This document shows positions 30,899-38,218 of a DNA stretch of 64,000 nucleotides, in pieces. The stretch comes from Microbacterium maritypicum (lineage in GTDB: Bacteria; Actinomycetota; Actinomycetes; Actinomycetales; Microbacteriaceae). A program made the translations under genes and the position numbers. The stretch spans positions 1,178,001-1,242,000 of the forward strand of contig NZ_WAAQ01000001.1 in assembly GCF_008868125.1 (NCBI RefSeq). Reading direction: 5' to 3'. The notes beneath the pieces were generated by a model. It saw nothing but the letters and a program-made list of their open reading frames with translations. It did no database searches and had not been told where the DNA came from. Numbering within the stretch: the stretch's first letter is position 1; each line of letters starts with the position of its first letter.

Positions 30899-30904
30899 TA
30901 CGAT
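30899..30904 (+). promoter_or_regulatory. -10 element of glf (leaderless)
   Basis: TACGAT ends 7 nt before ATG 30912. Confidence 0.65.
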
Positions 30905-30911
30905 TGCTGTC

Positions 30912-32048
30912 ATGGATCTTCTCGTCGTCGGGTCGGGTTTCTTCGGCCTCACCATTGCTGAGCGCGCTGCGGAAGCGGGCCGCAAGGTCACCGTCATCGA
31001 CCGTCGTCCCCACATCGGCGGTAACGCCTACAGTGAGCGCGAGTCGCAGACCGGTATCGAGGTGCACCGCTACGGCGCCCACCTCTTCCACACGTCGAAC
31101 CCGACGGTGTGGGAGTACGTCAACCGCTTCACGTCGTTCACGAACTACGTGCACCGTGTGTACACCACGCACAAGGGCACCGTGTTCCCGATGCCGGTGA
31201 ACCTCGGCACGATCAACCAGTTCTTCCAGTCCGCGTACACCCCGGACCAGGCCCGCGCGCTGGTGCGGGAGCAGGCGGGGGAGTTCGACGCGAAGACCGC
31301 TGCCAACTTCGAGGAGAAGGGTATCGCCCTCGTCGGACGCCCGCTGTTCGAGGCCTTCTTCCGCGACTACACCGCGAAGCAGTGGCAGACCGATCCGCAG
31401 AAGCTCTCCGGCGACATCATCAGCCGCCTCCCCGTGCGCTACACCTACGACAACCGCTACTTCAACGACACGTGGGAGGGTCTTCCCACCGACGGCTACA
31501 CGGCGTGGCTGGAGCGGATGGCGGATCACCCGAACATCGACGTGCAGCTCGATGTGGACTTCTTCGATGAGACGCAGCCCCTCAACAAGAACGCGACGGT
31601 CGGGCAGGTTCCCCTCGTGTACACGGGCCCCGTCGACCGCTACTTCGACTACGCGGAGGGCGCGCTCAGCTGGCGGACGCTGGACTTCGAGCAGGAGGTC
31701 CTCGACATCGGCGACTTCCAGGGTACGAGCGTGATGAACTACCCCGACATGGATGTGCCGTACACGCGCATCCACGAGTTCAAGCACTTCCACCCCGAGC
31801 GCAAGGATGTCTACGACGCCGATCGAACGGTGATCATGCGGGAGTTCTCGCGTTTCGCCGAGCGGGACGACGAGCCTTACTACCCGGTGAACACTCCGGC
31901 CGACCGCGGGGGCCTCCTGGCGTATCGGGAACTGGCCAAGGGGGAGCGGGACGTCCACTTCGGCGGGCGTCTGGGCACCTACCAGTACCTCGACATGCAC
32001 ATGGCCATCGGCTCGGCGCTGTCGATGTGGAACAACAGTCTCTCGTAG
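30912..32048 (+). CDS. glf: UDP-galactopyranose mutase
   Basis: This 378-residue flavoenzyme interconverts UDP-galactopyranose and UDP-galactofuranose, the donor for galactofuran. The FAD-binding motif VVGSGFFGL is at residues 5-13, followed by [11 protein letters not shown]. The active-site loop RYGAHLFHT and the substrate-binding segments WQTDPQKL and RYTYDNRYF are present, and the C-terminal PVNTPADR region fits too. Length is normal (370-400). It is leaderless, and its stop TAG forms the first three bases of the -10 of the following exporter gene. With galE and the GlfT-like transferases nearby it points to a galactofuranose polymer. Confidence 0.96.
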
Positions 32049-32051
32049 ACT
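32046..32051 (+). promoter_or_regulatory. -10 element of the second wzm (leaderless), overlapping the glf stop
   Basis: TAGACT lies 7 nt before GTG 32059; its TAG is the glf stop codon. The exporter can thus be transcribed apart from glf. Confidence 0.6.
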
Positions 32052-32058
32052 CGACATC

Positions 32059-32877
32059 GTGAGTCACGCTGCTGTCGGGGCGCCCGGGACGCCCCGGCGA
32101 TATCTGCATTCGCTGTGGCTGCTGTCGGCCCGAGACCTGAAGGTCCGCTACTCGACCAGCATCCTCGGCTATCTCTGGTCGGTGCTCGATCCGCTCGTCA
32201 TGAGCGCGATCTACTGGTTCGTGTTCACGCAGGTGTTCAACCGCGATGTCGGCGAAGAGCCGTACATCATCTTCCTGATCAGCGCGCTGCTGCCCTGGGT
32301 GTGGTTCAACGCCTCGGTGTCGGACTTCACCCGCGCCTTCAAGAAGGACGCCCGGTTGGTGAGGTCGACCGCGATCCCGCGCTCGATCTGGGTGAACCGC
32401 ATCGTGCTCAGCAAGGGCATCGAGTATCTCTTCTCGCTGCCCGTCCTGGTGCTGTTCATCGTGGTGAACCTCTTCGTCGAGCTCGATCCCGGCCGGACCG
32501 TGCACGTCGGCTGGGGAGTGCTGTGGATGCCGGTGGCGATGCTGCTGCAGACGGTGCTCCTGGTCGGGCTCGGACTGCTCGTCGCCCCGCTCTGCGTCCT
32601 CTTCGTCGACCTCGAGCGCACGACGGCGCTGATCCTGCGCGCGATGTTCTACGCGACGCCCATCATCTACAACGTCACCGACCTCCCCGGCATCTTCCAG
32701 ACCCTCGGGGCGTTCAACCCCCTCGCGGGAATCATGATGCTCTACCGCATGCCCTTCTTCCCCGATCAGTGGAATCCGTTCACGCTGACGATCAGCGTCA
32801 TCATGAGCCTGCTGATCCTCGGACTCGGCATCTGGACCTTCCGGAGCCTGGAACGCCCCGTGTTGAAGGAGCTGTGA
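32059..32877 (+). CDS. wzm: ABC-2 type polysaccharide export permease (second pair)
   Basis: This 272-residue protein has six predicted helices. The family opening LWLLSARDLKVRYSTSILGY, then LWSVLDPLVMSAIYWFVF, matches Wzm/RfbD permeases, including the mycobacterial galactan exporter subunit Rv3783. It would carry a lipid-linked galactan across the membrane with the ATPase encoded next (overlap at 32877). Its position directly after glf and opposite the galactofuranosyltransferases makes galactan the likely cargo. This pair differs clearly in sequence from the pair at 8940-10576. Confidence 0.88.
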   Translation: MSHAAVGAPGTPRRYLHSLWLLSARDLKVRYSTSILGYLWSVLDPLVMSAIYWFVFTQVFNRDVGEEPYIIFLISALLPWVWFNASVSDFTRAFKKDARLVRSTAIPRSIWVNRIVLSKGIEYLFSLPVLVLFIVVNLFVELDPGRTVHVGWGVLWMPVAMLLQTVLLVGLGLLVAPLCVLFVDLERTTALILRAMFYATPIIYNVTDLPGIFQTLGAFNPLAGIMMLYRMPFFPDQWNPFTLTISVIMSLLILGLGIWTFRSLERPVLKEL

Positions 32878-37080: not shown

Positions 37081-37151
37081 TGGGAGGTTCTCCGATGTTG
37101 GTGCCGCAGACCACTGCCGAAGGACAGTGCGGGGCTCGACGAGCAGTGAGT

Positions 37152-37157
37152 AGCCTA
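37152..37157 (-). promoter_or_regulatory. -10 element of the GlfT operon
   Basis: On the minus strand TAGGCT lies about 71 nt before GTG 37080, giving a leader with a GGAG ribosome site. It is in the same 148-bp gap as the galE promoter. Confidence 0.5.
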
Positions 37158-37215
37158 CCGTCGATGACCTCTGCATCAGCGGAGAGCCTCCCGGCGATGT
37201 CGCAGGGGCTCTGGC

Positions 37216-37221
37216 TAGACT
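37216..37221 (+). promoter_or_regulatory. -10 element of galE (leaderless)
   Basis: TAGACT ends 7 nt before ATG 37229. Confidence 0.65.
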
Positions 37222-37228
37222 GAGCGCG

Positions 37229-38218
37229 ATGAAGGTACTGATCACCGGCGGCGCCGGATACATTGGTTCGACTGTTGCGACCGCGTGCCTCGAGGCCGGT
37301 CACGAGGTTGTTCTCCTCGACGACCTCTCCCGAGGCCTCCGTTCCTTCGGTGAAGGGCGGCACCTGTACGTCGGAGATATCGCCGACGGTGATCTGGTCG
37401 ATTCCCTGCTCGCCGACCACCCTGACATCGATGCCGTCGTCCACTGCGCGGCGCGCATCGTGGTGCCGGAATCCGTCGCGGATCCGCTGGGCTACTACGA
37501 CACCAACGTCGGCAAGACGATCCTGTTGCTGCAGCGTCTGCGCGACGCCGGGATCGCTCGCATCGTCTTCAGCTCCTCGGCCTCGGTATATGCGGGGGAG
37601 ACGGGCGAGGGCGTGGACGAGAGCGGGCGGCTCGCCCCGGCGAGTCCCTACGCGGCGACGAAGGCGATGATCGAGCAGATCCTCCACGATGCCTCGCACG
37701 CGGGTGACTTCCGAGCGATCGCGTTGCGCTACTTCAACCCGATCGGTGCCGACCCGCAGTTGCGCACCGGCCTTCAGAACCCGACCCCGTCGCATGCGCT
37801 GGGCAAGATCATGCAGGCTCGCGCCGCAGGCGAGCCGTTCACCATCACCGGGACCGACTGGCCGACCCGCGACGGTTCCGGGCTTCGCGACTACATCCAC
37901 GTCTGGGACCTCGCTCTCGCCCACGTCGCCGCAGTGGAGAGATTCGACGACATCGCCACGGCCGCGGAGCCCTACGAGGTGATCAACCTGGGCACGGGAG
38001 ACGGCGTCACCGTCCGCGAGCTCGTGGCGGCTTTCGAGCGCGTGACCGGAGAGGCCCTCGCCGTGACCGAGACCGAGCGTCGCCCCGGAGATCAGGCCGG
38101 CGCCTTCGCGATCGTGGATCGCGCAGCCGAGGTGCTGGACTGGCGTGCGCAGCGCTCGGTGGATGATGGCGTGCGGGACGCGATCGCCTGGGCCGAGAAG
38201 TTCCGATCGCAGATCTGA
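37229..38218 (+). CDS. galE: UDP-glucose 4-epimerase
   Basis: This 329-residue SDR-type epimerase has the NAD-binding GGAGYIGS near the N-terminus, IVFSSSASVYAG and the catalytic pair YAATK (Tyr-x3-Lys). RYFNPIGAD and GLRDYIHVWDLA follow, all typical of GalE. It interconverts UDP-glucose and UDP-galactose and so feeds Glf. It is divergent from the GlfT operon and leaderless. Close relatives act on UDP-GlcNAc; the setting favours galactose. A hairpin spans its stop codon. Confidence 0.92.
   Translation: MKVLITGGAGYIGSTVATACLEAGHEVVLLDDLSRGLRSFGEGRHLYVGDIADGDLVDSLLADHPDIDAVVHCAARIVVPESVADPLGYYDTNVGKTILLLQRLRDAGIARIVFSSSASVYAGETGEGVDESGRLAPASPYAATKAMIEQILHDASHAGDFRAIALRYFNPIGADPQLRTGLQNPTPSHALGKIMQARAAGEPFTITGTDWPTRDGSGLRDYIHVWDLALAHVAAVERFDDIATAAEPYEVINLGTGDGVTVRELVAAFERVTGEALAVTETERRPGDQAGAFAIVDRAAEVLDWRAQRSVDDGVRDAIAWAEKFRSQI

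Follow-up and report, generated by a model that had tools for sequence, protein, structure and literature searches.

We analysed a 64-kb window of the 3.67-Mb genome (G000) of Microbacterium maritypicum, comprising positions 1,178,001 to 1,242,000 of contig NZ_WAAQ01000001.1, which carries a compact set of genes for the putative synthesis and export of a galactofuranan, among them glfT2, encoding a processive galactofuranosyltransferase. All of the genes named in the original prediction, which had been made from the letters alone, were found between 30912 and 38218 by open reading frame, Pfam and NCBIfam checks, and are given here with the genes that follow them. No RNA feature within the window matched Rfam at the gathering score.

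30912..32048, plus strand: glf, uridine diphosphate (UDP)-galactopyranose mutase (TIGR00031, 334.4 bits; PF03275, 272.3 bits)
32059..32877, plus strand: Wzm-type ATP-binding cassette (ABC) permease, type B, the Microbacterium type (PF01061, 56 bits)
32877..33611, plus strand: Wzt-type ABC ATPase, type B (PF00005, 75 bits; frame 32874-33611 in the Pfam search)
33639..34214, minus strand: 191-residue protein with a single membrane-like stretch by eye and without a Pfam family
34211..35179, minus strand: 322-residue family 2 glycosyltransferase (GT2), the proposed starter galactofuranosyltransferase (PF00535, in a longer frame)
35176..37080, minus strand: GlfT2, processive galactofuranosyltransferase of 634 residues (PF19320, PF17994; GTG start)
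37229..38218, plus strand: galE, UDP-glucose 4-epimerase (TIGR01179, 315.3 bits)
38234..39532, minus strand: Wzy/O-antigen-ligase family protein B (PF04932, 31.7 bits, at the cut-off, in a long frame)
39529..40944, minus strand: Wzy/O-antigen-ligase family protein A (PF04932, 36.8 bits)

Glf and GalE score over the NCBIfam equivalog cut-offs of their models (303.75 bits for TIGR00031 and 262.3 bits for TIGR01179), and Glf is 65% identical to a mycobacterial Glf. The 634-residue protein, for which earlier starts up to 37263 are possible, matches two GlfT2-specific Pfam models (PF19320, 159.5 bits with a cut-off of 27; PF17994, 109.6 bits with a cut-off of 26.1), the solved GlfT2 structure 4fix (phmmer E=1.4e-139), and the GlfT2 of a mycobacterial-type genome (39.8% identity over 644 columns); no NCBIfam GlfT2 model was listed for it at E<=0.001. 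The catalytic residues predicted at GlfT2-like spacing were confirmed, as D260-D262, D371-D372, and H396 pair in the phmmer alignment with 4fix chain positions 276-278, 391-392, and 416. Subtracting an offset of 20 converts these to the native positions D256-D258, D371-D372, and 396, of which His396 is presumably the matching catalytic residue. The two Asp motifs, 256-258 and 371-372, are named for mycobacterial GlfT2 in the accessible part of PMC7168186. The DDD, DDA, and His residues are invariant in 20 of 20 rows of alignment A1 and 27 of 27 rows of alignment A5. A structure model of the protein (predicted local distance difference test score, pLDDT, 91.5) superposes on 4fix with a template modelling (TM) score of 0.90 and a root-mean-square deviation of 3.1, and the top seven structure-search rows are all GlfT2, such that the comparison with mycobacterial GlfT2 that had been proposed as a check agrees in both fold and aligned residues. 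Judged by these sequence and model comparisons, the protein is a true GlfT2, and alternating beta-(1,5)/(1,6) galactofuranosyl transfer is its predicted activity.

According to the accessible part of PMC10951656, mycobacteria form UDP-galactofuranose with GalE and Glf, build a primer with WecA and WbbL, start the galactan with GlfT1, polymerise it with GlfT2, and export it through Wzm-Wzt; in the part of PMC4981717 available, Lcp1 attaches the galactan polymer. A candidate for each mycobacterial galactan step is encoded in the genome of M. maritypicum. We regard it as probable that this organism builds a wall galactofuranan by a related route, with the window holding the Microbacterium form of a wall-galactan locus conserved in Microbacteriaceae. 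GalE and Glf would supply UDP-galactofuranose, and the primer would probably be polyprenyl-pyrophosphate-linked N-acetylglucosamine-rhamnose (GlcNAc-Rha); WecA and a WbbL-like enzyme, whose genes are located in other parts of the genome, would make it. The 322-residue GT2 would start the chain on this lipid-linked primer, GlfT2 would polymerise a galactofuranan of the beta-(1,5)/(1,6) type, an ABC exporter would move it outward, and an LCP protein would attach it to peptidoglycan, with no arabinan made by Emb. The GlfT2-type processive synthesis at the centre of the original prediction is supported by the Pfam models, the 4fix match, and the fold. The locus is real and its core was read correctly as far as sequence can tell, and it forms part of a larger, widespread locus; the chemistry of the product is predicted.

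No WbbL was found in the window, in agreement with the earlier reading, from which a different linker had been suggested. This suggestion was not supported as stated, as the genome has WecA-, rml-, and WbbL-like genes at other sites. Besides MraY, a PF00953 protein is encoded (L022) that scores 120.2 of 326 bits with the WecA model and 57.1 of 192 bits with the MraY model, and by eye its gene lies between Sua5-like and AtpI-like genes, which we take to be the mycobacterial wecA setting. Both rmlA and rmlB are over their NCBIfam cut-offs at 335-338 kb of contig C2, where residues 188-468 of one gene product match RmlD (210.2 of 224 bits). This last gene, at 11223-12638 of L193 (G000:C2), is an apparent rmlC-rmlD fusion, with a first part that is RmlC-like by eye. 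Approximately 3.5 kb beyond the rml genes lies the gene for a 317-residue WbbL-like GT2 (G000:C2:341949-342902), the reciprocal best match (27.7%, 303 residues) of the mycobacterial-type GT2 encoded directly after rmlD. The latter was taken as WbbL because the accessible part of PMC4981717 places mycobacterial lcp1 next to rmlD and wbbL1. With these genes, a GlcNAc-Rha linker is possible in M. maritypicum.

The small GT2 had been assigned as GlfT1, which neither its score with the GlfT1 model (given below) nor its phylogeny bears out. A tree of 23 rows places it next to the GlfT2 catalytic domain and apart from mycobacterial GlfT1, with a support of 93/89, below the 95/80 mark, and on long branches. 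GlfT2 also gives the top query TM score (0.67-0.69) among 50 listed PDB rows for its structure model (pLDDT 88.6). The motifs NTGGxGGF, DDD, and WDD are invariant across 25 alignment rows. A scan of named contigs for GlfT2, of which the best 80 of 489 confirmed stretches were used, provided 31 loci treated as Microbacterium (30 titled so, and L074 titled Actinomycetes bacterium), and the 322-residue GT2 adjoins glfT2 in all 31. The protein is nearly confined to this genus, with one 50% relative in Arthrobacter L121. A different GT2 (324 residues in L155) is encoded close to glf-glfT2 in several other genera; it resembles mycobacterial GlfT1 more closely (up to 36% over 198 residues, in the L105 copy), and its best match in the window is the 322-residue protein at 28%. 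We propose the latter as a GlfT1 analogue by position, with a putative starter role.

The 7.3-kb cluster had been read as the whole machine, but a longer locus is conserved in other Microbacteriaceae, and further members of it lie at the left of the window. An LCP protein, as predicted, is among them.

447..962: purE (over its NCBIfam cut-off)
1043..2413, plus strand: LCP-family glycopolymer ligase, proposed to attach the galactan (PF03816, 76.1 bits)
5238..6311, plus strand: GT4-type glycosyltransferase of the conserved locus (PF13692, 42.6 bits)
8940..9842, plus strand: Wzm-type ABC permease, type A (PF01061, 53.3 bits)
9839..10576, plus strand: Wzt-type ABC ATPase, type A (PF00005, 74 bits)
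10573..12528, plus strand: DUF6541 membrane protein of the conserved locus (PF20176, 503 bits)

In Schumannella L131, G297, and G040, the gene order is, with some intervening genes, purE, LCP, (GT4), Wzt/Wzm type A, GT2, GT2, glf, glfT2, Wzy, Wzy, manA. The genes are rearranged in G135, with type A between glf and glfT2, and in G132 purE, LCP, GT4, and DUF6541 are present and type A was not seen in the stretches examined. All five have an LCP orthologue at the edge of the glf-glfT2 locus, and relatives of the GT4 (33-38%) occur in L131, G297, G132, and G135. The window has purE, LCP, GT4, type A, and DUF6541 on the left (0.4-12.5 kb) and glf to manA on the right, the two halves being separated by approximately 18 kb of other genes, many for glycans. 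The same two-part layout was found in G106, G164, G258, and G296, four of five same-genus relatives; for the fifth, G215, the matching stretch was not found in the regions examined. The conserved order and layout across Microbacteriaceae suggest that the LCP protein and exporter A are part of an inherited galactan machine. The DUF6541 protein has a partial match (31.5%, 184 residues) to a protein encoded two genes before mycobacterial wzt.

Neighbours were counted within 10 kb of glfT2, a distance inside which several contigs end. In the 31 Microbacterium loci, Wzy-family protein A was found in 29 and B in 27, glf and type-B Wzt in 20 each, type-B Wzm in 19, galE in 11, and relatives of the 191-residue protein in eight. 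GlfT2 was called in 46 of the other 49 loci, and glf adjoins glfT2 in 36. Also encoded in the left part of the window are a 587-residue DUF4012 protein (3352-5115), between the LCP gene and the type-A exporter, and an 801-residue protein with FG-GAP repeats (6446-8851). The first part of the latter is about half identical to a glfT2-adjacent protein in L153 and L155, the L155 copy of which ends in LGFP repeats.

Two unrelated-looking Wzm/Wzt pairs stand inside a single wall-glycan region (8940-10576 and 32059-33611). The original prediction had taken the adjacent pair for a mycobacterial-type exporter, which was not supported, as it is the type of the other pair that adjoins glfT2 in other Micrococcales. 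A Wzm/Wzt pair different from type B adjoins glfT2 in 25 of the 46 non-Microbacterium loci, and the pairs of other Micrococcales share 46-57% (Wzm) and 53-72% (Wzt) with type A of the window, with L072 as an outlier (37% and 49%). With type-A relatives accompanying glfT2 in this way, type B was dropped as the established galactan exporter. Trees place types A and B in separate clades. Type A is slightly preferred as the galactan carrier on comparative grounds. It is also conceivable, at somewhat less than an even chance, that in Microbacterium type B has taken over galactan export from type A, which would now serve another polymer. In 19-20 of the 31 Microbacterium loci and in four of the five same-genus genomes, type B is flanked by glf and the glfT2 pair, but it is not beside glf in G164 and in some named loci, and among the other 49 loci it was found once, in the Microbacterium-like L061 (72%). 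The mycobacterial proteins point both ways, since Wzm is closer to type B (24.5%, E=3e-8, versus 19.8%, E=9e-4, for type A) whereas Wzt is closer to type A (37.5% versus 33.7%), and the trees leave the mycobacterial pair unplaced, on long branches. In L166 (G215), GlfT2 is only 49% like that of the window and has a divergent type-A-like exporter (49% and 37%) as its neighbour. The 322-residue GT2 and type B remain 72-82% alike there, and the pattern may reflect a local replacement.

Several results weigh against a wall galactan of the mycobacterial kind. With the galactan-exporter equivalogs (NF050109 for Wzm, cut-off 380 bits; NF050108 for Wzt, cut-off 400 bits), type B scores 53 and 153.1 bits and type A 46.9 and 171.9 bits. 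The best NCBIfam model of the 322-residue GT2 is GlfT1 (NF050113), at 72.7 bits with an equivalog cut-off of 330. The WbbL-like GT2 scores 56.9 of 200.55 bits with TIGR01556, and its reciprocal-best status applies to a 23-row set only. The galactofuranose product is itself a prediction, and the galactan could belong to a larger polymer, given the many other glycosyltransferases and the two Wzy proteins. The last point leads to an alternative in which a capsule, exopolysaccharide, or heteropolymer contains the galactofuran as a segment or side chain, instead of a mycobacterial-style wall backbone. The neighbouring glycosyltransferases (18-29 kb) would take part in its synthesis, and the two Wzy/O-antigen-ligase proteins would act on it. 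Of ten scanned neighbour proteins, seven match a glycosyltransferase or Wzy/O-antigen-ligase Pfam family (near or over the cut-off, or weakly), a GT2 with a membrane part is encoded at 26957-28804, and the Wzy-family genes accompany glfT2 in 27 and 29 of the 31 Microbacterium loci. However, the conserved locus also contains an LCP gene and an ABC exporter, and in other Micrococcales glf and glfT2 often occur with only an exporter, as where type A adjoins in 25 of 46 loci. We consider this alternative unlikely and retain the wall galactofuranan as the best explanation of the locus.

The genes might also have been taken recently from a mycobacterium, as Mycobacteriales are the best-known bearers of GlfT2 and its pathway (accessible part of PMC10951656). 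In a 45-row GlfT2 tree, however, four mycobacterial-type rows form their own clade, the window falls with Microbacterium inside a Microbacteriaceae clade, and Micrococcaceae are mostly in another; long branches are seen in this tree for two outgroup rows and for a second, divergent copy of mycobacterial type. Of 299 genomes sampled from the family, 65, covering 28 of 85 genera, matched the GlfT2 N-terminal model, as did 29 of 396 genomes across the phylum, 14 of them in the mycobacterial-type family f6. Recent transfer is not supported by the tree and appears very improbable; the trait looks like an old one. Membership of Microbacteriaceae, as predicted for the window, was borne out, since among the 31 named loci whose GlfT2 is closest to that of the window (L052-L082), the record title gives Microbacterium in 28 and a higher rank alone in the other three. 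Besides Microbacterium, the best 80 of 489 stretches include Leucobacter, Cryobacterium, Agromyces, Humibacter, Schumannella, Arthrobacter, Pseudarthrobacter, Paenarthrobacter, Sinomonas, Kocuria, Kineococcus, Demequina, Cellulosimicrobium, Georgenia, Aeromicrobium, and one record titled Sphaerisporangium. More divergent second GlfT2-like genes were seen in G348, G532, and G573 of family f6 (E 1e-16 to 1e-22), and G068, of the same family as the window, has two GlfT2-like copies approximately 3.5 kb apart.

The genome search for emb that had been proposed gave no match to Emb (PF04602) in the genome of M. maritypicum, while the C. glutamicum control matched. Emb was also absent from the five same-genus genomes sampled, all six genomes having GlfT2, and DPPR synthase gave no match at E<=1e-20 in any of the six (alignment A2). 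Mycobacterial AftA and AftB, compared with the window and a few loci of the same genome, gave no match at 1e-3, AftA-D not having been searched genome-wide. From the lack of Emb and DPPR synthase, the galactofuranan is predicted to carry no arabinan. The accompanying statement that Microbacteriaceae lack arabinogalactan is nonetheless unsafe, as five of the 299 family genomes have Emb and DPPR synthase near glfT2. Emb was found in six of the 299. In G040, G132, G297, G166, and G135 (loci L153 to L157, in this order), its gene shares a contig with the GlfT2 match, at a distance of 4-12 kb, and DPPR synthase is 2-10 kb from the GlfT2 match; in the sixth genome, G231, the Emb match is weaker and GlfT2 was not matched. 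The L155 Emb-like protein has all three Emb Pfam domains over cut-off and matches solved EmbA, EmbB, and EmbC, keeping in the alignment the DDGY run of EmbC, to which we assume a catalytic role; no NCBIfam family was listed for it at E<=0.001, although Pfam and PDB identify Emb. The L153 Emb-like protein gives a match as well. Identity to mycobacterial UbiA is 47-54% for the four DPPR synthases that were compared, and the DPPR synthase of L155 matches the solved enzyme 8j8j at E=3.1e-69. At E<=1e-20, 20 of 299 genomes encode DPPR-synthase-like proteins; the five best scores are those of the five Emb-bearing genomes, four of which were in the query alignment. Among the other 15, such a gene lies approximately 10 kb from glfT2 in G273, without an Emb match, and on another contig in G064.

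Within genus g35, both Emb and DPPR synthase occur in two of six GlfT2-bearing genomes. Gene order, compared in three genomes, revealed in G166 and G297 a five-gene block (Emb, a membrane-like protein of 460-478 residues, a GT4, DPPR synthase, and a His-phosphatase) between a glfT2-adjacent gene and the Wzy genes; G034 (L161) has the same flanks with one 156-residue gene in its place. The flanking gene encodes LGFP repeats in G297, and its G034 relative shares only the first part and has no Pfam match. No orthologue of DprE1 was found in the five Emb-bearing genomes (best 29-37% over part of the protein; control 100%). Because of this, the Emb-bearing relatives may add a pentofuranose to the galactan by a route other than the full mycobacterial one. 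In L157 (G135), the Emb-like gene, an adjacent GT2, and some others are split into separate pieces in different frames, through either gene breakage or errors of assembly. The glf-glfT2-Wzm-Wzt cluster of L100 (Kineococcus rubinsiae) encodes a protein 52% like mycobacterial DPPR synthase, with no Emb reference match within the 10-kb flanks. A more tentative view, which we would not yet favour, unites these observations as one old Microbacteriaceae galactan locus with exchangeable decoration modules, in which the chain of Microbacterium would be arabinan-free and started or finished by a lineage-specific galactofuranosyltransferase, a few relatives would have gained or lost the Emb/DPPR-synthase block at a single site within a genus, and an arabinogalactan-like, pentofuranosylated wall would exist outside the mycolic-acid order. 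As no DprE1 orthologue was found in these relatives, the pentose of such a wall may be ribofuranose, or arabinose formed through another epimerase.

The mycobacterial wall core is usually presented as a speciality of mycolic-acid bacteria. The enzymes for its galactofuranose backbone occur here in a Microbacterium, which has no mycobacterial outer coat, and this suggests that the backbone is an older and more widespread part of actinobacterial walls than its tuberculosis fame implies. If this is true, galactofuranan would be an old actinobacterial wall glycan that mycobacteria later decorated, a view that draws on the presence of GlfT2 in 28 of 85 Microbacteriaceae genera and beside an exporter in Arthrobacter and its kin, and soil strains could be used to study GlfT2, chain-length control, and galactan export. 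The Emb/DPPR-synthase block, found in relatives and not in the window itself, is both the most surprising result and the most valuable lead, and its natural presence and absence within one genus makes the origin of arabinogalactan testable by wall chemistry. No report of GlfT2, Emb, or galactofuranan in Microbacteriaceae was recognised by title and abstract in the open-access library searched, a scope outside which most subscription journals fall, and none of an Emb/DPPR-synthase block near glfT2 in this family was found in that library. The accessible part of PMC10757982 covers acid production only, with no wall sugars, and that of PMC6113628 holds no Microbacteriaceae wall-sugar data.

Among known systems, the galactan pathway of mycobacteria and corynebacteria shares with M. 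maritypicum homologues of GlfT2, Glf, and GalE, an ABC pair, and LCP, WecA-like, and WbbL-like genes. The organism differs in that no Emb or DPPR synthase was found, the 322-residue GT2 does not appear to be a GlfT1 orthologue, there are two distinct exporter pairs, and two Wzy proteins are encoded beside glfT2. Galactofuranan without mycolic acids also occurs in the walls of Bifidobacterium. The galactan O-antigens of Klebsiella O1/O2 likewise combine a galactan with glf and Wzm/Wzt in one cluster, but they are made by other transferases on a lipopolysaccharide acceptor, whereas the locus described here has GlfT2 and an LCP protein. Kingella kingae, as far as the accessible part of the source describes it, is a bacterium without mycolic acids that has a galactofuranose homopolymer, made by pamABC and not by GlfT2.

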